Shown here: positions 17,949 to 28,997 of the stretch, piece by piece
Position numbering within the stretch: position 1 is the stretch's first letter
Layout: every line of letters starts with the position of its first letter
Assembly (NCBI RefSeq): GCF_002855515.1
Contig: NZ_PKRP01000001.1
Span: 744,001-808,000 of the forward strand
Reading direction: 5' to 3'
Source of the DNA: Rhizobium sp. TH135
Lineage (GTDB): Bacteria > Pseudomonadota > Alphaproteobacteria > Rhizobiales > Rhizobiaceae
DNA: 64,000 nucleotides
The notes under the pieces: model-generated
Databases searched by the model: none
What the model was told of the DNA's origin: nothing
What the model saw: the letters and a program-made list of their open reading frames with translations, nothing else
Program-made: the position numbers and the translations under genes

Positions 17949-20334
17949 ATGCCGCACTCGGACGGGTATCCGTCCAGCCGAGATTGCCGGCATAGCGCCA
18001 GGCCATCTGCCCCTGCTCGTCGAGCGTGAAGAGATGCAGCCAGCCATTGTCGAAGAGGGCGCGCACCTGGGCATGCCGCTTCAGGATGTCTGAAATCGCC
18101 TCCTTCGGCGCATCGACGGCGACCGTCAGTCGAAGCGGCTCGTGGACGAAATTCTCCCCGTCATGCACCGACTGCCAGGGAAGCCCGGCGCGCAGGTTCC
18201 CGCCATTGCCCTCGACGACCCCGATACCGCCGACGACATTGTGCAACAGCTTGTTGCCAGCTCCGAAGAGCGAGGGCGCAACCGACGAGCCGAAGTATTG
18301 CAGGCTGATCCAACTCGCGACGACCACGGGAGCCGTCAGGATGAGTTCGAGGATCTTGAAGCCCTCGTCCTTCTTCCACACATAGTCGTGCAGGAAGGCC
18401 TGGCCTTCCAGTGAGCGACCAGCCGTCCGTGAGCGCGGTGCCGCGATAAAGGCGCGGCAACCGGCAAGCCCGAGTTCTGGGCGAACTTCTGACCAGTCCT
18501 TGCTGCGCTCGATGACACGGTCAGCGGTCGCCCGCGGCAGACGCCGCGCCCGCTCTGCCCGCGTCAGGCTGCCGGCCTGGGCGAGCCACTGGCGGATCCG
18601 AACGATGTCTTCAGGCAGAATATCGTTCTCAAGGTCGTCCTCAAACAGCGTCACGCTATCAGTCGTCGTGTCATGCAGGCCACCGAGGAAGACAGTATCG
18701 GCCGGGATGCTGATCCCGTTCCCCGCCAGCTTTTCCCGCACGGCGCGGTCGTTCAAGAGATCGGCCAGCAGCCGCGCGTTGACGTCACCCGCATACCCGC
18801 CACAGGCACCGCAGTGAAGCGCACTGGCATAGGGGTTGTTGACCACATTCGCCCCATGGCCGGAGATCAGCACAAAGCGGCCGAACCCTTCCGTCAGCGA
18901 CATCGCTTTCAGCACCGTTTCGGCGACCACGGCGCGGGTATCCAGATCAAGGCTCGGCGCAAAGCGGGGCTTTGCGGCGTCAGGACCCTTGCCCTTGCCG
19001 AAGCCGAGACCATCACGCAGCAGCTTGCCGGCATAAACAGGCCCCATTGCCTCGACGAAGGCGAAGGAGGACACGGCGGCCAGCTTGAACCGGCCCCAGG
19101 CACGGGTCGCGCGCGCGCTGAACCGCGCCTGCTGATCGGCATCCTCGTCATGATCGACAGCACTGCAGCTGAACACGGAGGGCTTCAGGAGAACCGGCAG
19201 ACGATGCTCTGATACGTCGGAGGCAAAGCCTTTGTGGCTGGCACCCAGACCGAAGAAACCGGCAAAGCCGAGTGTGCGAACAGCAGGATCAACGCTTTCG
19301 ATCGCGCGGCGGAAGACTTCCGAGCGCACGTCGATGCAGAAGGCCGCCTGCAGCACTGGCCGCAACTCGGCAACCTTGATCGGCGCGGGTGCAGCAAGCG
19401 TAGCCGCAAGCTTCCGCTGCGCCGCCCGCTCGGCAGCGACCTGCAGCAACCCGTCGATGACGGTGTCGAAGTCAGGGCTGACCGGCTCGACATGGCTCCG
19501 CCGCACCTGCTGCCACTCACTCTCGATGGCGGCCTTGTGACGCGCATAGAGCGCCTCTTCGAAGACCAGCCTGATCGCCAGCAGCTCAAGCGCCGTGGTG
19601 TCCGTGCGTCCCTCGACCTCGGCCTTGAACTGGATGTGGCGCGCATACTGCGCCCAGCCGCCGACGGTCAGCAGCAGTTGGTGGAAATAGGTGCCGGGCT
19701 CAGCACCGAGGCCGAGCGAAACGGCCGCCCGCTCAATCGCCCCATGCGGCGTCTCCGGCGTTTCATCGACATGGATGCTGAAGCCCTTCAGCCCCAAGAT
19801 CTCAGGCGTCAGGTCATGGGTCGCAAAGGCACGCCAGGCAGCGTAGAGACCGTTGCGCCGGGAAGCGGCCCAAAGCGCCTGGCCCTGATCGAAGAAACCG
19901 GCTGCAAAGGTGCCGATCCGCTCGGAGACGAGCCCCGGCCAATCCTTGCCCGTGGCCCGCGCGGCAAGTTCCGCGATCGTTGGGAGTGCTGCCACCGGCT
20001 GCGGCTCCTCGGCGACGGCAGCTTTCAGCGCCTGCAAGTCGATGCGGTTGAAGAGCGTGCTCGACTGAAGTGCGGCGACCAGATCTTCATCGATGATCTC
20101 GCCCTTGGCGATCTGGTCGGCATAATACTTGCGCGGGAGAGCAAGCCTGACGCCACCGATCCGGGCGAGCCGGGCTGCGGTGTTGTCCAGCGTTTCGCTG
20201 ATCTGGCCGAGGAAGGGATTGACGGCGACGGTCGCCGTCAGCGGCCAGGCCGGCGGGATCGCCCGCACGGCCTGATCTGCCGCCCGGGCAAGGGCTTCGC
20301 CATGCAAGGTGTCAATCGTGGTCATCTCGGTCAT
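17920..20334 (-). CDS. dabA: DabA-type inorganic carbon uptake subunit (DUF2309)
   Basis: An 804-residue protein of the UPF0753/DUF2309 family, now known as DabA. DabA is a beta-carbonic-anhydrase-like zinc protein that, with the membrane subunit DabB, converts CO2 to bicarbonate in an energy-coupled, one-way manner. The zinc and active-site pattern is intact: CID with C333 and D335 ([10 protein letters not shown]), H493 ([15 protein letters not shown]) and C508 (LHCGACGG). No signal peptide; it is expected at the cytoplasmic face bound to DabB. The ATG has GGAGTG five bases upstream and lies four bases after dabB. Its presence beside heterotrophic catabolic genes suggests carbon supply for carboxylases rather than autotrophy; no RuBisCO gene is seen. 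Confidence 0.88.
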
Positions 20335-20338
20335 CGGT

Positions 20339-21922
20339 TCACTCCTTCACGGAAGCAGGCGTTGCGGAGGTGGTGCGCGGAAGCGTCCAGCCACCGAGCA
20401 GGCGATCGAAGAGGGCATTGACGTAGAGGCCGTTGGCGAGATGGACGCGCAGGCCCGCCGCTGCCGGATGATAGGCCCAGAGCGGGAAGAGCGACTGAGC
20501 GACCGCCACCACGCCGAAGGTGACGACGGCGAGCAGCATCAGTGTCCATTCGAGCGGCCCGGGCTGTGGGGTCGCGGGCAGCGTGCCAAGCATCAGCTTG
20601 TCGGAAATACGCTGCAGGGCGAAGTAGGCCGTGGCCGCCGAGATCGCGTAGAGCGAGGTCCGCCAGGTGAGCGCCCGGGGAGCCGCATCCGCCAACCCTT
20701 GTGCAATGAGATAGGCGACGCCGAAGATCAGGATCGCACCGAGTGCCAGCGCCTGCGGCGGCTTGTCGGCAAAGCCGAAGAGCACACCGATGACGGCATA
20801 GATGGCCAGCGCCAGCAGGAAGGCACGCCCGACCGCCTTGGCATTCGGTATCGCGACCGGACCGGGACGCTTGATCGAGGCGACCGTCTCGATGGCGGAG
20901 CCGGAGGCGAGGAAGGCATGAGCCTTGTAAAGCGAATGGGCGACGATGTGCAGAAGCGCGATCGGGAACAGTGCCAGACCACACTGCAGGATCATGAAGC
21001 CCATCTGCGCGACCGTGGACCAGGCGAGCGAGGTCTTCACCGCCGACTGCGTGAGCATCACGAGGCTGCCGAAAAGGGCCGTGAAGCCACCGACCATGAC
21101 CAGCACCGCAAGCACCACCGGCGCCTGCAGCATGACATCGGCAAAGCGGATCAGCAGGAAACCGCCGGCATTGACGACGCCAGCATGCAACAGGGCGGAA
21201 ACCGGGGTCGGCGTTTCCATGACTTCGGTGAGCCAGCCATGGGTCGGGAACTGGGCGGACTTCAGAAGTGCCGCGATCGCCAGCAGGGCTGCGGCGGCAA
21301 TCGTCAGCGGCAGCCCCTCGCCCTCGCGGGCCGCGGCGAGAATGGTGGCGATATCGCCGGTGCCGAAGGAGATGGCGAGCAGGATGACAGCGCCGATCAG
21401 GGCGGCATCACCGGTGCGCGAGACGATGAATTTCTTGCGCGCGGCCCGCTGGGCAGCAATCCGCTCGGGATAGAAGAGCAGCAGCTGATGCAGGAGCAGG
21501 CTGGTCGCGACCCAGCCGACAACGAGCTGGAGCAGCGTGCCCGACTGTACGAGGAGCAGGACGGCAGCGAGGGTCGCCGTCATCCAGCCGGTGAACGGAC
21601 CCTGCCGCTCTTCCCCGTCGAGGAATGTGCCGGCATAGCGCAGCACCACCCAGCCGATGAAGGACACGAGCAGCAGCATTACCAGGCTGACAAGATCAAG
21701 CCGCGAGGCAAGTGCGAAGTAGCTATAGCCGATGGCAGGACTGGTTCCCGGCCCCTGCAGCACCAAGACAACAGCGGAAAGCCCTGCGACGAGGATCGAA
21801 CCGAGGGCAGCGAATTCGGCAATGCGGATCGCCTGACGCGGGCGAAGCCCGGGTGCCTGGAAGGCACAGAGCGAAGCACCGGCAAGCAGCAGCGGCGCGA
21901 GAAGCGGCAACATATGGATCAC
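20339..21922 (-). CDS. dabB: DabB-type membrane subunit, NuoL/MrpA-like
   Basis: A 527-residue polytopic membrane protein of the proton-conducting NADH-quinone oxidoreductase (NuoL/ND5) family, with about 13 hydrophobic helices. Conserved helical elements are recognisable: [20 protein letters not shown], the [21 protein letters not shown] region with the antiporter lysine/histidine motifs, and [17 protein letters not shown]. In the two-gene Dab system DabB provides a cation gradient (proton or sodium) that drives DabA. Adjacency to dabA, rather than to nuo or mrp genes, identifies it. The start is taken as the GTG at 21922 with GGAGA about six bases upstream; an ATG three codons in is the alternative. 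Confidence 0.88.
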
Positions 21923-22046: not shown

Positions 22047-22943
22047 ATGTCCGAGCTGAACTATCATCACCTCCGCTATTTCCGCGCCGTCGCCCATGAC
22101 GGGAACCTGACCCGCACGGCCGAGCGGCTGAACCTGTCGCAATCGGCGCTCTCGATCCAGATCAAGCAACTGGAGGAGCGGTTGGGCCATTCTCTCTTCG
22201 AGCGTCGCGGCCGACAGCTCTATCTGACAGAAGCCGGCCGCATCGCGCTCGACCATGCCGACACGATCTTCTCGGCCGGCGAGGAACTGGTCGAGACGCT
22301 GAAGGAAACCGGGAGGACACGCCGCGCCATCCGTATCGGCGCGCTTGCAACGCTCTCCCGCAACTTCCAGATGGAGTTCCTGCGTCCGATCCTCGGACGC
22401 TCCGACGTCGACATGATCCTGCGCTCGGGCAGCACCAGCGAGTTGTTGGGCGCGCTCGAAGCCCTCAACCTCGACATCGTTCTGCTCAACCAGGCGCCGA
22501 TGGCCGACTCGGTGACACCCTTCATCGCCCAACACGTCTACCAGCAGCGGGTCAGTCTCATCGGCAGACCGTCCTACGGCAAACCGGGCGCCAAGCTTGC
22601 CGACCTGCTGGGCGAGCATCCCGTCATCCTGCCGACGCTGGAAAGCGGCGTGCGCTCGCAGTTCGAAGCACTCGTCGCGCGCCTCGGCATCACGCCGCAG
22701 ATCGCCGCCGAAGTGGACGACATGGCGATGATGCGTCTTCTCGCCCGCGAAGGTGCGGGCCTTGCCGTTCTGCCGCCGATCGTTGTCAAGGGCGAGCTTG
22801 AAGCCGGCACGCTGGTCGAATTCGACGCCCTGCCCGGCATGATCGAATCCTTCTATGCCGTGACCGTGAAGCGTCGCTTTCCGAACCCGCTCATCCGGCC
22901 ACTGCTGGAAGCGAGCGAAGACGGCAAATCCACCACCGCCTGA
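22047..22943 (+). CDS. LysR-family regulator divergent from dabBA (NhaR-like)
   Basis: A 298-residue LysR regulator: N-terminal winged helix-turn-helix (about 4-63, RTAERLNLSQSALSIQIKQLEERLG) and a two-lobed LysR substrate-binding domain after about residue 90. The opening SELNYHHLRYFRAVAHDGNLT resembles the NhaR branch. It diverges from dabB across 124 bases, the standard arrangement for a LysR protein controlling its neighbour. A plausible role is induction of dabBA under low inorganic carbon, or sensing of ions or pH; the effector is unknown. The ATG lacks a ribosome site and is overlapped upstream by a palindrome. Confidence 0.9.
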   Translation: MSELNYHHLRYFRAVAHDGNLTRTAERLNLSQSALSIQIKQLEERLGHSLFERRGRQLYLTEAGRIALDHADTIFSAGEELVETLKETGRTRRAIRIGALATLSRNFQMEFLRPILGRSDVDMILRSGSTSELLGALEALNLDIVLLNQAPMADSVTPFIAQHVYQQRVSLIGRPSYGKPGAKLADLLGEHPVILPTLESGVRSQFEALVARLGITPQIAAEVDDMAMMRLLAREGAGLAVLPPIVVKGELEAGTLVEFDALPGMIESFYAVTVKRRFPNPLIRPLLEASEDGKSTTA

Positions 22944-22988: not shown

Positions 22989-23978
22989 GTGAAGACGTCC
23001 ATTGCCATCATCGGAGCCGGGATCGCCGGCATAACGCTCGCGCGGGCGCTAACCCCGTCAGCCGACGTCACCGTTTTCGAAAAGAGCCGAGGCCTCGGCG
23101 GCCGGATGGCAAACCGCCGCCGGGAGGGCTTTGCCTTCGACCATGGCGCCCAGTATTTCACCGCCCGCTCGCCGGCATTCCGGTCGGTTGCGGAACGTGC
23201 CATCAAGACGGGTCATGCCGGCATCTGGCCGAAGGCGGTGCACACGCTCAGGGCCGACGGATTGGTGGCCGACAGCCGCCCACCGGAGCCGCGCTATATC
23301 GGGCTGCCTGGCATGAGCGGGTTTGCGAACGGATTGGCCGAGGGCCTTCAGATCCGCAAGGAAGCGACGGTTGCCGCCCTCAAGCCTGCCGAACATGGTT
23401 GGTCACTCACCGATAGCGAAGGCCAGGATCTCGGTAGTTTCGATCTTGTACTTTCCACCGCCCCGGCACCACAAACCATCCGCCTGTTGCCCGAGGCATT
23501 TTCAGACTGCGAAGCGCTGGCCCGTGTCCGCATGAGCGGCTGCTTCACCCTGATGATCGGCCTCGACGAGCCCCTGCATCTCGGCTTCGATGCCGCCCGC
23601 ATCGAGGATGACGTCTTGAGCTGGATCGCCATCGAGGGCAGCAAGCCCGGCCGCGGAGAGAAAGAGGCGCTCACCATCCACAGCCGCAATGATTGGGCCG
23701 AGTCAAACCTGGAACGCGACCGCGACGAGGTGAAATCGGAAATGCTCGCCTCACTGAAGCGCCTGCTTGGACGGGACTTCTCGAACGCCGCCTGGCTGGA
23801 TATGCACCGCTGGCGCTACGCCAATGTGGACCAAGCCGCTGACCAACCGTATCTCTTCGATGAAGCCCTCGGCCTCGGCGCCTGCGGCGACTGGTGCCTC
23901 GGCAACCGCGTCGAGGCAGCGGTCGAAAGTGCGACGGCCCTGTCGGAACGACTGATCACACGCCTGCATGGAGCCTGA
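22989..23978 (+). CDS. FAD/NAD(P)-dependent oxidoreductase, renalase-like
   Basis: A 329-residue flavoprotein with an N-terminal dinucleotide-binding motif IIGAGIAGITLARAL, the SRGLGGRMANRR second FAD motif, and a DHGAQYFTARS segment characteristic of the bacterial renalase/amine-oxidase-like group. The C-terminus carries the closing FAD motif LGACGDWCLGNRVEAAVESA. The family includes enzymes that re-oxidise aberrant dihydro-NAD(P) isomers, but many members are uncharacterised, so the reaction is not assigned. GTG start with AGAGGGA upstream. The next gene, a small membrane protein, begins three bases after its stop, suggesting an operon. The ECF sigma factor just downstream suggests a stress role. 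Confidence 0.78.
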   Translation: MKTSIAIIGAGIAGITLARALTPSADVTVFEKSRGLGGRMANRRREGFAFDHGAQYFTARSPAFRSVAERAIKTGHAGIWPKAVHTLRADGLVADSRPPEPRYIGLPGMSGFANGLAEGLQIRKEATVAALKPAEHGWSLTDSEGQDLGSFDLVLSTAPAPQTIRLLPEAFSDCEALARVRMSGCFTLMIGLDEPLHLGFDAARIEDDVLSWIAIEGSKPGRGEKEALTIHSRNDWAESNLERDRDEVKSEMLASLKRLLGRDFSNAAWLDMHRWRYANVDQAADQPYLFDEALGLGACGDWCLGNRVEAAVESATALSERLITRLHGA

Positions 23979-23981
23979 CCG

Positions 23982-24413
23982 ATGTATCGCGATCCCGCGC
24001 TCACCAAACTCCTGACCTATGCCGGCGCCCTGCCCTTTTGGGCGGTGGGGCTGGCCCAGGTGCTCGGCTACCAGCCCGCACTCGCCGCGCAAGCCTTCAT
24101 CGCCTACGGAACCGGCATAGCCTGCTTCATGGCCGGCACGCTCTGGAGCCAGGCTCAGATCCGCGCTCAGGATCCACGGCTCATGCTGATCGTGAGCAAT
24201 GTCGCGGCCCTCGCTGCCATTGGCGGGGTTCTGGCCTATCCTTACATCCCGGCTTTGACGATGGCGCTGCATGTGGGGGTATTTCTGGTCCTGCTTGCCG
24301 CCGATCTCGGCATCCACCGCAAAGGCGACCAACCCGCCTGGTATCTGGCGCTCCGGCGCAACGTCACGCTGCTGGTAATTGCCGCCTATGCCGTGGCGAT
24401 GATCCTGACATGA
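23982..24413 (+). CDS. DUF3429 small integral membrane protein
   Basis: A 143-residue protein with four to five predicted transmembrane helices (for example LLTYAGALPFWAVGLAQVLGY, AFIAYGTGIACFMAGTLW, LIVSNVAALAAIGGVLAYP). Its conserved YGAxIxxFxxGxxW-like and WYLxLRRxVT features fit DUF3429. Biochemical function is unknown. It starts three bases after the flavoprotein gene and is almost certainly co-transcribed with it. No signal peptide beyond the first helix and no catalytic motif seen. Confidence 0.75.
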   Translation: MYRDPALTKLLTYAGALPFWAVGLAQVLGYQPALAAQAFIAYGTGIACFMAGTLWSQAQIRAQDPRLMLIVSNVAALAAIGGVLAYPYIPALTMALHVGVFLVLLAADLGIHRKGDQPAWYLALRRNVTLLVIAAYAVAMILT

Positions 24414-24523
24414 GATTTTTTCTGCGCGACCTGTAAGATGGCGCTGAAAGCCGCGACCAAATGAAGGCGTGCTGTGTTGCGCGCCGGGTCTTGGCAGGCG
24501 CGGGCAATGTCCGGGGGATCACG

Positions 24524-25156
24524 ATGGTAAATGCGGGCGAGCAGGAATTGAACGGCGGAAACGGTGCAGCCGCGCCGTTTCTGGCCGATGCGATGTATAT
24601 GGCGGAGCTGCGTCAACGCATGTTGAGTTTCGCAAGCCTCCAGCTTGCCGATCCCGGCCTTGCCGAAGATGCCGTCCAGGAAGCGCTCGCCGGCGCACTT
24701 CGCAATGCCAAGGCCTTTGCGGGACGGTCTGCCTTTCGCACCTGGGTCTTCGCCATCCTGCGCAACAAGATCGCCGACCAGATCCGCTTCAAGCGCAAGC
24801 AGTCGCAGATGATCGCCATGCCGCTCGGACATTTTCCGGATGAGGATGAGCCGCGCTACTTCGATGTCAAGGGTCACTGGGTTCCGGAAAACCGCCCGAG
24901 CGACTGGGGCAATCCGGAAGTCGAACTACTCGGCAAGGACTTCTGGCGCGTTTTCGAGGCCTGCCTCGATCATTTGCCCCCCGACCAGGGCCGCGTTTTC
25001 ATGATGCGGGAATTCGTCGAGATGGACACGGAAGAAATCTGCGCCGAGATCGGCATCACCACCACCAACATGCATGTCCTGATGCACCGCGCGCGGCTTC
25101 GTCTGCGCAACTGCCTGCAAGGACACTGGTTCGCGCCGGAGGCGACATTGTCATGA
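24524..25156 (+). CDS. ECF-type RNA polymerase sigma factor
   Basis: A 210-residue extracytoplasmic-function sigma factor with region 2 (about 25-95, LADPGLAEDAVQEALAGALR and FAGRSAFRTWVFAILRNKIADQ) and region 4 (about 145-200, LPPDQGRVFMMREFVEMDTEEICAEIGIT followed by the recognition helix NMHVLMHRARLRLRNCL). A linker of about 50 residues (EDEPRYFDVKGHWVPENRP) is longer than usual and characteristic of one ECF subgroup. The ATG at 24524 follows GGGGGATC; a start 21 codons earlier has no site. Its end overlaps the anti-sigma gene by four bases. Together with the flavoprotein and DUF3429 genes upstream it probably forms a stress-response unit; the trigger is unknown. Confidence 0.88.
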   Translation: MVNAGEQELNGGNGAAAPFLADAMYMAELRQRMLSFASLQLADPGLAEDAVQEALAGALRNAKAFAGRSAFRTWVFAILRNKIADQIRFKRKQSQMIAMPLGHFPDEDEPRYFDVKGHWVPENRPSDWGNPEVELLGKDFWRVFEACLDHLPPDQGRVFMMREFVEMDTEEICAEIGITTTNMHVLMHRARLRLRNCLQGHWFAPEATLS

Positions 25157-25347
25157 TGTGCGAAAACGCAACGAAGCTCGCCTCGGACGAACTCGACCGA
25201 CGTCTGTCGCTTGGGGAAACAGTCGGCCTGCGTCTGCATCTCTTCAAATGCGGCGCATGTTCGGGCTTCGTCCGGCAAATCCAGATGATGCGCAAGGTCA
25301 CCCGCCGCTACGTCGCGACCGATGCATCCGATCCGAACGAGGGCTGA
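25153..25347 (+). CDS. Very small zinc-type anti-sigma factor
   Basis: A 64-residue protein whose start overlaps the ECF sigma stop (ATGA). It contains H29-x3-C33-x2-C36 (HLFKCGAC), the zinc-binding core of ZAS-family anti-sigma factors, in an otherwise helical protein; the preceding LASDELDRRLSLGE helix fits the sigma-binding fold. It has no transmembrane helix and no sensor domain. It therefore looks like a minimal cytoplasmic anti-sigma factor, possibly responding directly through oxidation or metal loss at the zinc site. The assignment rests on this motif and on coupling to the sigma gene. Its stop codon directly abuts the stop of pcaB. Confidence 0.78.
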   Translation: MMCENATKLASDELDRRLSLGETVGLRLHLFKCGACSGFVRQIQMMRKVTRRYVATDASDPNEG

Positions 25348-26397
25348 TCAACGCTCGCCGAGCTGTTCGATCGACTGCAGGACTTCAGTGCCAAGCCGCG
25401 TGGCGGCCCCCGTGGCGATTGCCATTTGCGGCAAGATCATCCATTCGAGCGTCCAGGCGGCGCCCGATCGCTCCTGCTCATGCACCAGGGCCTGATGCAG
25501 GCCTGAGATTTGCACGGCATTGAACCGGGCGAGCGTGACGAGAACTTCGGCCTTCACCGGGTTTCTCTTGTGCGGCATGGCGGACGAAGCACCGCCGCCG
25601 CCGATCACTGCCGTGCCATTGTCCGCCATCAGCGCCAGATCCTGGCCGATCTTGCCGAGGCTGCCAGTGATGAGGGAGAGGAGACCGCCTATCTCGGCAA
25701 TTACGGCCCGCTGGCTGTGCCATTGGGGCCGGTCTGAGAGTTGAAGGAGTGTGGCGAGCCTTGTACGAACGAACGACGCCTTGTCTCCAAGCTTTTCGAG
25801 CGTGCCGGCAGCGCCGCCGAACTGAAGCGGCAGACCGGCTTTCAGCATGTCCTGAACAGCAGCCCGATGCGCGACGACCGGCCCCTTCCACGTGGCAAGT
25901 CGATCGGCAACCGTGATCGGAATCGCCGCCTGCATGCGCGTGCGCCCCATCAGGGACTGGGTGCCGAAGCGCGTCTCCAAACCGTCAAGCGACGAGATAA
26001 TCGCCGCCAGACGCTGATCGAGGATTGAAAGCACAGCACCCAGCCGCAGCATCAGACCGGTATCGATGGCATCCTGGCTGGTCGCGCCGAAATGGAGATG
26101 TTTTCCGGCGTCGCCCAGTCCTGCACGCCACTGCCGCACGAGATCGGGGATAACAACACCGTCGCGTCCAATCGCCTGCTTCAGAGCGTCGAGATCGGCA
26201 ACGAACGCCTCCGGCAGCGCCGCAATCTCTTCAGCGGATGCGCGCGGAATAAGCCCTTCGGCAGCCTCCGCCTCGGCAAGTGCCACCTCGAAACGCAGCA
26301 TGGCCGAAAGCTCGGCTGCGGCCGAGAACTGAGCTCCGATTTCGTCATCGCCCAGAAGGCCGGACAGGATCGGATGGTCGAAGACGGATGCGGTCAT
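25348..26397 (-). CDS. pcaB: 3-carboxy-cis,cis-muconate cycloisomerase
   Basis: A 349-residue fumarase/aspartase-superfamily enzyme that converts 3-carboxy-cis,cis-muconate to 4-carboxymuconolactone. The superfamily signature GASSAMPHKRNP is intact, as are the HFGATSQDAIDTG and MQAAIPITVADR regions. Start at MTASVF (26397); the upstream frame extension overlaps pcaG and is rejected. Last gene of the pcaDCHGB operon, 19 bases after pcaG. Length is typical of rhizobial PcaB, shorter than the pseudomonad form. Confidence 0.93.
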   Translation of the reverse strand: MTASVFDHPILSGLLGDDEIGAQFSAAAELSAMLRFEVALAEAEAAEGLIPRASAEEIAALPEAFVADLDALKQAIGRDGVVIPDLVRQWRAGLGDAGKHLHFGATSQDAIDTGLMLRLGAVLSILDQRLAAIISSLDGLETRFGTQSLMGRTRMQAAIPITVADRLATWKGPVVAHRAAVQDMLKAGLPLQFGGAAGTLEKLGDKASFVRTRLATLLQLSDRPQWHSQRAVIAEIGGLLSLITGSLGKIGQDLALMADNGTAVIGGGGASSAMPHKRNPVKAEVLVTLARFNAVQISGLHQALVHEQERSGAAWTLEWMILPQMAIATGAATRLGTEVLQSIEQLGER

Positions 26398-26416
26398 ACT
26401 GATCTTAAGGCCCTTC

Positions 26417-27031
26417 TCAGATGTCGAAGAAGACCGTCTCCTTCTCACCCTGCAGGTGGATGTCGAAGTGATAGGTCGAACCGTCCCGCTGTGCAATCAG
26501 CGTCGGCACGCGCACGCGGTGCTCGATGCGCGCGAGGATCGGATCCTCGGCATTGGCCGCCTCTTCGTCACCGAAATAGAGGCGCGTGTTGAGGCCGAGA
26601 TTGATGCCGCGCGCGACGATCCAAAACGAGATATGCGGCGCCATAAGTCGTCCGTCCCGGAAGGGTACCCGGCCCGGCTTGATCGTCTCGAAGCGATATT
26701 CGCCGGTCGAGAGGTCACAAGGGCAGCGTCCCCAGCCAGTGAAGTTCGGATCGGCGCTGCCGCGCGTCTCGGACGGACTGTTGTAGAGACCCTCGGCATC
26801 CGCCTGCCAGATTTCGATCAGCGCGTCCTTGAGCGGCGTGCCCGAGCCATCGATGACGCGACCGGTCACAGTGATGCGCTCACCGCGCGTCTTGTCGTTG
26901 ACCATGGTAGTGCCAAGATCAACCGGATAAACGCCCTTGATATCGGCGAAATTCGGCGTGAGGCCGATGTGGACGTAAGGGCCCGCCGTCTGCGAGGCGC
27001 TTTCCTTGAGGTAACCGAGATCCTGGACCAT
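26417..27031 (-). CDS. pcaG: Protocatechuate 3,4-dioxygenase alpha subunit
   Basis: A 204-residue subunit of the intradiol ring-cleaving dioxygenase that opens protocatechuate with O2. It has the common intradiol fold (ITVTGRVIDGSGTPLKDALIEIWQADAEGLY, DPNFTGWGRC, YRFETIKPGRVPFRDG, APHISFWIVARGI) but lacks the full Tyr/Tyr/His/His iron set, as expected for the alpha subunit. Its ATG overlaps the pcaH stop by one base (TGATG), giving equimolar coupled synthesis with the beta subunit. Confidence 0.94.
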   Translation of the reverse strand: MVQDLGYLKESASQTAGPYVHIGLTPNFADIKGVYPVDLGTTMVNDKTRGERITVTGRVIDGSGTPLKDALIEIWQADAEGLYNSPSETRGSADPNFTGWGRCPCDLSTGEYRFETIKPGRVPFRDGRLMAPHISFWIVARGINLGLNTRLYFGDEEAANAEDPILARIEHRVRVPTLIAQRDGSTYHFDIHLQGEKETVFFDI

Positions 27032-27780
27032 CAATTTCCCTCCATCCGGTTTTCGAACAAGGTCGAACGCCGTCCGCGCAACACCATATCGAACTTGTAG
27101 GCCCGCGCATCCATCGGGATGGTTGCCGACCAGTCGAGGGCTGCGACAAGCTGCTCGATCGCCGCACGATCCGGGATCGTCAGCACGATCGGACACTTCC
27201 AGATCATCGGATCGCCCTCGAAATACATCTGGGTGATCAGACGCTGCGAGAAGCCATGGCCGAAGATCGAGAAATGGATATGCGCCGGCCGCCAGTCGTT
27301 GACACCATTCGGCCAGGGATAAGGACCGGGCTTGATCGTGCGGAAGGCATAATAGCCGTTCTCGTCGGTGATCGTGCGCCCGCAGCCGCCGAAGTTCGGA
27401 TCGAGCGGTGCGAGATAGCTTTCCTTCTTGTGGCGATAACGACCGCCGGCATTGGCCTGCCAGAACTCGAGGAGCGCGCCCGGAACCGGCCGTCCGCGCT
27501 CGTCGAGCACACGGCCATGCACGATGATCCGCTCGCCGATCGCGCTCTCGCCCGGCTTGGCGAAATTGTGGATCAGGTCGTTGTCGAGCTCACCCAGGAT
27601 CGAGTGACCAAACACTGGACCTGTTATCTCGGACTTCGTGCCGTCGAGCGACAGCAGCGCCTTCTGCGGCGAGCGCAAGACGGAGGTCTTATAGGTTGGC
27701 GTATAGGCCGGCGGATGCCAGTTGCGGTCACGCGGGAAGAAGGCACCCGTCTCCGGCTTCTTGTTCGGCAGATCAGTCAT
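27031..27780 (-). CDS. pcaH: Protocatechuate 3,4-dioxygenase beta subunit
   Basis: A 249-residue catalytic subunit carrying the mononuclear Fe(III) site. The second tyrosine ligand is in [24 protein letters not shown], which also contains the two histidine ligands (AHIHF); the first tyrosine is in the [26 protein letters not shown] region. The start at MTDLPN (27780) has GGGAGCC upstream and overlaps the end of pcaC by eight bases. It catalyses cleavage of protocatechuate to 3-carboxy-cis,cis-muconate, the committing step of the operon. Confidence 0.95.
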
Positions 27781-28192
27781 GGCTCCCTCCCGCAGTCTCG
27801 CCCGCATCCATCTGTTCAAACACGTGTTTGGCGATCTTGAAAGCCCTGTTGGCGGCGGGAACGCCGGCATAGATGGCAACATGCATCAGCGCTTCGGTGA
27901 TGTCCTCGCGGCTCGCCCCGGTATTGGCGGTGGCACGCACATGCATCGCCACTTCTTCGTCATGTCCGAGGGCCGCGAGCAGTGCGATGGTGATCATCGA
28001 GCGCTCGCGCGAGCTGATGGTTGGACGCGACCAGACGGTACCCCAGGCGCCCTCGGTGATCATTTCCTGAAACGGCTGATCGAAGGGAGTGGCCAAAGCC
28101 GAAGCTCGGTCGACATGGGCATCGCCCAGGACACGGCGGCGTGTCGCCATGCCCTGTCGATAGCGGTCAGAGGGGCTGCGGGCGTCAGCCAT
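27773..28192 (-). CDS. pcaC: 4-carboxymuconolactone decarboxylase
   Basis: A 139-residue member of the carboxymuconolactone decarboxylase/AhpD fold that produces beta-ketoadipate enol-lactone. It has the typical [34 protein letters not shown] core and the C-terminal [18 protein letters not shown] segment. The start MADARSP at 28192 is inside the end of pcaD (eight-base overlap). It is separate from pcaD here, whereas some bacteria have a fused pcaL. Confidence 0.94.
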
Positions 28193-28997
28193 GGGATATA
28201 TCTCCTGAAACGAGAGGCGCAAGAAAGGCCTCAATAACGGCGGTCAGCGCCTCCGGCTGTTCCACGCAAGGGATATGGCCGGCACCGGAAATGACTTCGT
28301 AGCGGGCCGAAGGAATGAGACGTGCCAGCGACAGGACCAGATCCGGCGGGGTCGCCCCGTCCTGATCGCCGACGACACAAAGGGTCGGCACAGCGATCTT
28401 GGTGGCGGCCACGGTGAAATCGGCATCGCGGATGGCGGCACAGGTGCCGATATAACCCTCGACGGGTTGGCGAAGCATCATGTTGCGATAACCGGGAAAG
28501 GCAGGATTGGAAGCATCGCGGAACGGGGCCGTAAACCAGCGTTCCATCACGCCATCGACAATGCCGGAAAGGCCATTCTCCTCGATCGCCTTGATCCGGG
28601 CAGCCCACATCTCCGACGTGCCGATCTTGTGGGCTGTATCGCAGAGGATGAGCGCCCGCACGAGATCCGGCCGGCGCGCATAGAGGCCCTGGGCGATCAG
28701 CCCGCCGACCGAAAGACCGCAGATCACCGCCTGCCGGACATTCAGATGCTCCAGAATGCCGATCAGGTCGTCGACATGGTCATCAATCGAATAGGGCGCC
28801 TCGCCGACATCCGACAGACCATGGCCGCGCTTGTCATAGGTGAGCAGCGGATAGTCGCCTGCCAAGCGCACCAGCACGTCACGCCAGATCCGGAAATCGG
28901 TTCCAAGCGAATTGATGAACACGATGACGGGACGCTGCGCCGGTCCGCCGATGACCTGGTAGTGCAGCGCCGCATCGTTGACCTGAACGAATTGCAC
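28185..28997 (-). CDS. pcaD: 3-oxoadipate enol-lactonase
   Basis: A 270-residue alpha/beta-hydrolase that opens beta-ketoadipate enol-lactone. Catalytic triad candidates: serine in CGLSVGG, aspartate in VGDQDGATPP and histidine in SGAGHIPCVEQP. The start is placed at the GTG of VQFVQVND (28997), because GGAGG lies eight bases before it and family members begin at this point. An ATG eight codons upstream would put that ribosome site inside the gene. First gene of pcaDCHGB, facing pcaQ across about 97 bases with a PcaQ-type operator. Confidence 0.93.
   Translation of the reverse strand: MQFVQVNDAALHYQVIGGPAQRPVIVFINSLGTDFRIWRDVLVRLAGDYPLLTYDKRGHGLSDVGEAPYSIDDHVDDLIGILEHLNVRQAVICGLSVGGLIAQGLYARRPDLVRALILCDTAHKIGTSEMWAARIKAIEENGLSGIVDGVMERWFTAPFRDASNPAFPGYRNMMLRQPVEGYIGTCAAIRDADFTVAATKIAVPTLCVVGDQDGATPPDLVLSLARLIPSARYEVISGAGHIPCVEQPEALTAVIEAFLAPLVSGDISHG

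Follow-up and report, generated by a model that had tools for sequence, protein, structure and literature searches.

How is an ECF sigma factor governed, and what might release it, when the putative anti-sigma factor encoded behind it is only 64 residues long? Such a pair lies in a stretch of 64,000 nucleotides from Rhizobium sp. TH135 (hereafter the window), and an initial annotation took it for a compact switch responding to an oxidant or a metal. We compared the pair with those of other genomes of the genus (14 with the sigma factor, the own genome included, and 22 without it), with related loci of other species, and with published relatives. The features discussed are collected in Table 1.

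Table 1. Positions of the features discussed; numbers refer to the window unless a locus on another contig is named.
Feature	Position	Strand	Basis
NADH-quinone oxidoreductase subunit L-like protein	20339-21922	-	NF006029, 369.5 bits, just below the cut-off of 380
LysR-type regulator gene	22047-22943	+	Lies beside the subunit L-like gene
Renalase-like flavoprotein, co-inherited neighbour	22989..23978	+	PDB 4zcc, E 4.6e-52
DUF3429 membrane protein, co-inherited neighbour	23982..24413	+	PF11911, 70.2 bits (cut-off 39.1)
Predicted promoter of the sigma operon, TGTAAG-N16-CGAC	24432..24457	+	Exact site, conserved position, enriched in related loci
ECF sigma factor, TIGR02943 family, 210 aa	24524..25156	+	TIGR02943; Pfam regions 2 and 4
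Zinc-motif anti-sigma factor (predicted), 64 residues, Cys3/His29/Cys33/Cys36	25153..25347	+	NF052368, zf-HC2, invariant ligands
pcaB, pcaG, pcaH, pcaC (protocatechuate)	25348-28234	-	All above model cut-offs
Reversed site beside the bufferin operon	L042 1501-1526 (own contig C6)	-	Conserved in the genus
Reversed site beside msrP	L045 1501-1526 (own contig C8)	+	Conserved in the genus

The sigma factor matches the NCBIfam model TIGR02943 with 231.8 bits (cut-off 162.2), and its regions 2 and 4 are both above the Pfam cut-offs, so that the profile search bears out the ECF classification. Its reading frame has an alternative upstream start at 24461, which would fall upstream of the transcription start expected from the promoter element; the ATG at 24524 is common to the eight closest relatives in a DNA alignment, and it is this alignment that carries the evidence, the starts in the protein alignment having been preset at 24524. 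The long linker described between regions 2 and 4 is present (about 52 residues) and is no special trait of this protein: among 58 sequences it measures 43-54 residues, 51-54 in 51 of them, and F134, W140, P146, W149, P152 and F161 are each kept in at least 57. Both the length and the residues are thus the norm of the family.

The ATG of the small gene and the TGA of the sigma gene share an ATGA overlap, and the annotated H-x3-C-x2-C core is found as H29-x3-C33-x2-C36. Cys3, which the annotation had left unnamed, is likely to be a fourth zinc ligand: with it the protein follows the zinc anti-sigma (ZAS) pattern Cys-x25-His-x3-Cys-x2-Cys, and the four residues are invariant in all 14 sequences of the genus, as well as in all 21 of a wider set made of the window protein and 20 of 51 more distant anti-sigma factors, chosen for their clean starts. 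The protein matches the anti-sigma model NF052368 at 61 bits (cut-off 50, NCBIfam) and zf-HC2 at 25.9 (cut-off 22.2). No other Pfam domain was found within the 64 residues, in agreement with the description of an anti-sigma factor lacking a sensor domain. Its AlphaFold model consists of three helices (pLDDT 87.9), and structure alignment places this predicted fold nearest to RsiW (Z 7.4), MucA (7.1 and 7.0) and ChrR (6.4), all with Z below 8 and with the best unrelated structure at 3.8. The Foldseek E values were weak (0.4 at best), a profile search with the anti-sigma factor brought up RsiW (E 0.08) alongside matches attributable to chance, and a sequence search of the PDB with the anti-sigma factor alone gave no match. 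Directly behind the small gene, its stop abuts that of the first pca gene.

The missing sensor domain is not an oddity. A protein with the pattern C-x24-27-H-x3-C-x2-C is encoded downstream of the sigma gene in 51 of 57 related loci and, with start codons called mechanically, 23 of the 26 frames that begin within 21 bases of the sigma stop have 60-78 residues. Since the published MseR and the 67-residue HrsE are equally small, an anti-sigma factor of this size without a sensor domain is nothing special. In Neisseria meningitidis, RpoE (NMB2144) is followed by MseR (NMB2145), a small cytoplasmic zinc-motif anti-sigma factor whose Cys4, Cys34 and Cys37 are required for activity, His30 being dispensable (PMC2893595). 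The two systems resemble each other in ligand spacing, in having a methionine-sulfoxide reductase target, and in the -35 core and spacing of the promoter, given for Neisseria RpoE as GTMAGBWTT-N12-13-CGTCTAAH (PMC2893595); they differ in the -10 core, CGTC there and CGAC here, and in the operon neighbours, a DoxX-like protein and others there, a renalase-like and a DUF3429 protein here. RpoE2/HrsE of Haemophilus influenzae, termed ECF group 13, has its anti-sigma factor co-transcribed with the sigma gene and drives msrAB (PMC7907618), which lies in the same gene region, whereas here msrA is on another contig. RsrA of Streptomyces coelicolor, likewise a zinc-motif anti-sigma factor, senses thiol oxidation (PMC4960319). 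The RsrA model TIGR03988 gives the window protein 16.1 bits, below its cut-off of 62.5. Judged by sequence, the pair is an ordinary member of a known family, of a type already known from RpoE/MseR and RpoE2/HrsE. Further literature drawn on comprises PMC3420878, PMC8315932, PMC6527743 and PMC3511200.

The genes that the pair may control can be sought through its promoter. The element TGTAAG-N16-CGAC sits between the DUF3429 gene and the sigma gene, a position that it occupies in 12 of the 14 genomes with the sigma factor. One locus carries the variant TGTAAT (L011), and another genome (G014) has three elements around the sigma locus in place of the usual one, one upstream of a gene trailed by an oxidoreductase gene, one upstream of a TVP38-oxidoreductase gene and one upstream of a transporter gene. 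In the 57 related loci taken from a set of 80 (L101-L157, many of them mutually related; the 23 loci L158-L180, with at most 33% identity or a fragment match, were left out), TGTAAG-N16/17-CG[AT]C occurs at 54 sites in 32 loci, against 3 sites for the backward control. The spacing peaks at 16-17, and every other value from 8 to 26 gives 0-4 sites. Part of the 54 sites lie within the sigma gene or upstream of unsupported frames. Model-checked genes downstream of sites in these loci encode, among others, a DUF2282 bufferin precursor, HvfA-like peptides, ArsS, DoxX, MsrA, a solute-binding protein, an oxidoreductase for pyridine nucleotides and a fusion of TVP38 with an oxidoreductase. The occurrence of sigma factor genes in bufferin clusters has already been described (PMC12452194). 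A locus of Pseudogulbenkiania subflava has six TGTAAG-N16/17-CGAC sites in about 6 kb. The assignment of this element as the predicted promoter of TIGR02943 sigma factors is new here and is well supported by its enrichment and its spacing.

In the own genome the exact pattern occurs at 9 sites, compared with 25 for the backward control. As there is no overall enrichment, each site has to be judged by its place and conservation. Genomes of the genus have a mean of 6.4 sites when the sigma factor is present and 3.6 when it is absent, among the matches listed and with ten rows missing from that list (three of G009, five of G015 and two of G032). Three sites of the own genome are well placed, upstream of the sigma gene, of msrA and of a second ECF sigma gene on contig C7; the predicted regulon is small. 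On reading frames only, we set aside the exact sites C9:23824, C11:396915 and C12:312133, which lie within or face a gene, C13:50489, which overlaps the start of a frame, and the candidate C8:464280.

The own msrA matches TIGR00401 with 200 bits. A site upstream of msrA was found in 7 of 13 examined genomes with the sigma factor (8 when TGCAAG is admitted) and in none of 17 without it, and the 5 of the 13 lacking any such site are those with the most divergent sigma factors (60-73% identity). msrA was sought in 36 genomes and 30 loci were read; G016 gave no match, the loci of G012, G015, G024, G029 and G032 are outside the 30, and G004, G016, G018 and G029 are less than 90% complete. The second ECF sigma gene is adjoined by a site in at least 9 of the 14 genomes with the first sigma factor, the own included, by coordinates and among the matches listed. 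Its product remains below the TIGR02943 cut-off (101.8 bits versus 162.2), and an operon divergent from it encodes an 81-residue protein one bit above the NF052368 cut-off. On the own contig the order is the second sigma gene, a divergent VTT-domain gene, and then this 81-residue zinc-motif anti-sigma gene. The second sigma gene may be driven by the first sigma factor, or its product may use the element itself. In G026, the only genome without the first sigma factor to have a clear relative of the second sigma gene, this relative has no exact site upstream; in G006, which has the first sigma factor, a related sigma gene of doubtful orthology likewise lacks a site.

Family membership, the conserved ligands and the places of the promoter element, as read from the sequence, lead us to infer a switch of the RpoE-MseR or RpoE2-HrsE type, and we regard it as probable that a thiol oxidant frees the sigma factor to drive its own operon, msrA and the second sigma gene. 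In the unstressed cell, the zinc-loaded 64-residue protein would bind the sigma factor and bar its contact with RNA polymerase. The zinc site at Cys3, Cys33 and Cys36 would come under attack from a thiol oxidant in the cytoplasm, with reactive chlorine or a related oxidant as the likeliest candidate; the small protein would itself be the sensor, so that no extra domain would be required, and the released sigma factor would fire the TGTAAG-N16/17-CGAC sites upstream of its own operon, of msrA and of the second ECF sigma gene. Most likely, then, the pair responds to stress from thiol oxidants or reactive chlorine and switches on the repair of methionine sulfoxide. Oxidant is the likeliest signal, even though the published relatives conflict on this point: meningococcal rpoE and msrAB transcripts were unaltered by H2O2, diamide, singlet oxygen or SDS-EDTA (PMC2893595), and H. 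influenzae that had lost rpoE2 was no more readily killed by HOCl, H2O2 or paraquat, with weak rpoE2 autoregulation (PMC7907618).

Of the proposal of a switch responsive to an oxidant or a metal, the compact switch fits the family and the predicted msrA target fits an oxidant, whereas metal sensing is not singled out by the sequence. The same pair would answer to a metal if Cu, Cd or Zn displaced or occupied the zinc site, with metal defence as its purpose. In favour of this, sites in other species stand upstream of genes for metal peptides of the DUF2282 and HvfA-like kinds, bufferins have been described as chelators of excess copper (PMC12452194), and the overlapping Caulobacter SigF set is reported to respond to chromium and cadmium. 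The correctly oriented sites of the own genome, however, precede two sigma genes and msrA, the site adjacent to the bufferin operon being reversed, and we consider a metal signal unlikely.

With ChrR among the closest structures (Z 6.4, rmsd 4.4), the pair could also be read as a switch of the RpoE-ChrR kind that responds to singlet oxygen and has the flavoprotein encoded nearby as its photo-oxidative partner. ChrR (a chain of 169 residues) nevertheless carries a further C-terminal domain, a cupin, behind its anti-sigma domain, while Pfam finds zf-HC2 alone in the 64-residue protein. Together with the lack of induction of the meningococcal relative by singlet oxygen (PMC2893595), this makes such a switch very improbable. 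Even less credible is a small protein that assists the sigma factor, as its positive co-factor or its chaperone, instead of inhibiting it: co-production from overlapping genes would suit it, but the family and ligands are those of the MseR/HrsE-type anti-sigma factors, deletion of MseR turned its regulon on (PMC2893595), and HrsE co-purified with RpoE2 and abolished RpoE2-driven reporter activity (PMC7907618).

The flavoprotein and DUF3429 genes annotated upstream of the sigma gene were both recognized. The former aligns to renalase over residues 4-326 of 329 and is predicted to be a renalase. Of the 14 genomes of the genus that have the sigma factor, 12 carry the renalase-like gene, compared with 1 of the 22 that lack it (Fisher p 9e-7, taking genomes as independent although they are related by descent), and the DUF3429 gene was found in the same 13 genomes. 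Neither had a match in the 57 wider related loci, so that within the loci examined the link is confined to this genus. The promoter element is downstream of both genes, so a transcript starting at 24432 excludes them. No exact site lies upstream of either, and the one-mismatch matches at 18385 and 22204 do not exceed what chance would give (3 in all versus a mean of 1.82 expected). The renalase-like and DUF3429 genes are tied to the sigma gene by co-inheritance, an association that is new here; our literature search found no paper joining any two of renalase, DUF3429 and ECF sigma factors.

Two more conserved sites of the own genome do not fit the proposed oxidant switch. They lie beside msrP (NF003767, 485 bits) and the bufferin operon (identified by the DUF2282 and MbnB_TglH_ChrH models), each in 12 of the 14 genomes among the matches listed, and point away from both operons. 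At msrP, adjacency is by coordinates alone in G016, as it is at the bufferin operon in G002, G005 and G031; the msrP frame was read directly in the own genome, G035, G027 and G026 and is deduced elsewhere from the common flank. Among the genomes without the sigma factor, the flanking aldolase gene was read in 21, and all 21 lack the bufferin-adjacent site; in G026, the one of them whose downstream frames were viewed, the bufferin operon is not at this position. The msrP-adjacent site is present in G026 as well. No small-protein frame that the reversed sites could drive was seen in the stretch inspected by eye. In 18 of 21 sequences the operon strand carries CTTACA and TACA at a distance of 20 bases; both reversed sites are accompanied by TGTA-like blocks whose distance hardly varies. 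A second conserved block, TGAAAC-N17-CGTC, lies on the msrP strand in all 12 sequences read, and may be a promoter for a different ECF sigma factor.

These same operons recall SigF/NrsF (ECF16) of Caulobacter crescentus, which is reported to control YedY (MsrP) and DUF2282 clusters through GTAACC-N16-CGAA promoters resembling TGTAAG-N16-CGAC, in overlapping surroundings of YedY (MsrP) and DUF2282/DUF692/DUF2063/DoxX genes. Unlike the soluble zinc-motif protein of the window, NrsF is membrane-bound, and six helices are predicted for it. A match to NrsF above the cut-off was found in 1 of the 14 genomes with the sigma factor and 16 of the 22 without it (p 1e-4, genomes as independent; matches in G010 and G035 are under the cut-off, and that in G023 is above it but short), and there is none in the own genome. 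DUF2282 is present in 26 of 30 genomes with either regulator and in none of the 6 with neither. A SigF-like promoter was present in one of the four NrsF-side loci in which it was sought. The near-exclusion, the distribution of DUF2282 and the Caulobacter targets together suggest that a common gene set is governed either by the zinc pair or by SigF-NrsF. It is possible, and we propose it tentatively, that in this genus the soluble zinc switch replaced membrane-anchored SigF-NrsF over msrA/msrP and bufferins, with a sigma cascade and reversed sites.

These observations yield a promoter rule for TIGR02943 sigma factors that can be put to the test in many Pseudomonadota, and connect the family with methionine-sulfoxide repair and metal-binding peptides. 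Co-inheritance ties a renalase-like enzyme and a DUF3429 protein to this switch. If the replacement took place as proposed, the first sigma factor would drive a second pair of ECF sigma and zinc anti-sigma factors, and the reversed sites at msrP and at the bufferin operon may give rise to antisense RNA or obstruct a promoter. The results point to an exchange of two unrelated anti-sigma designs within one genus.
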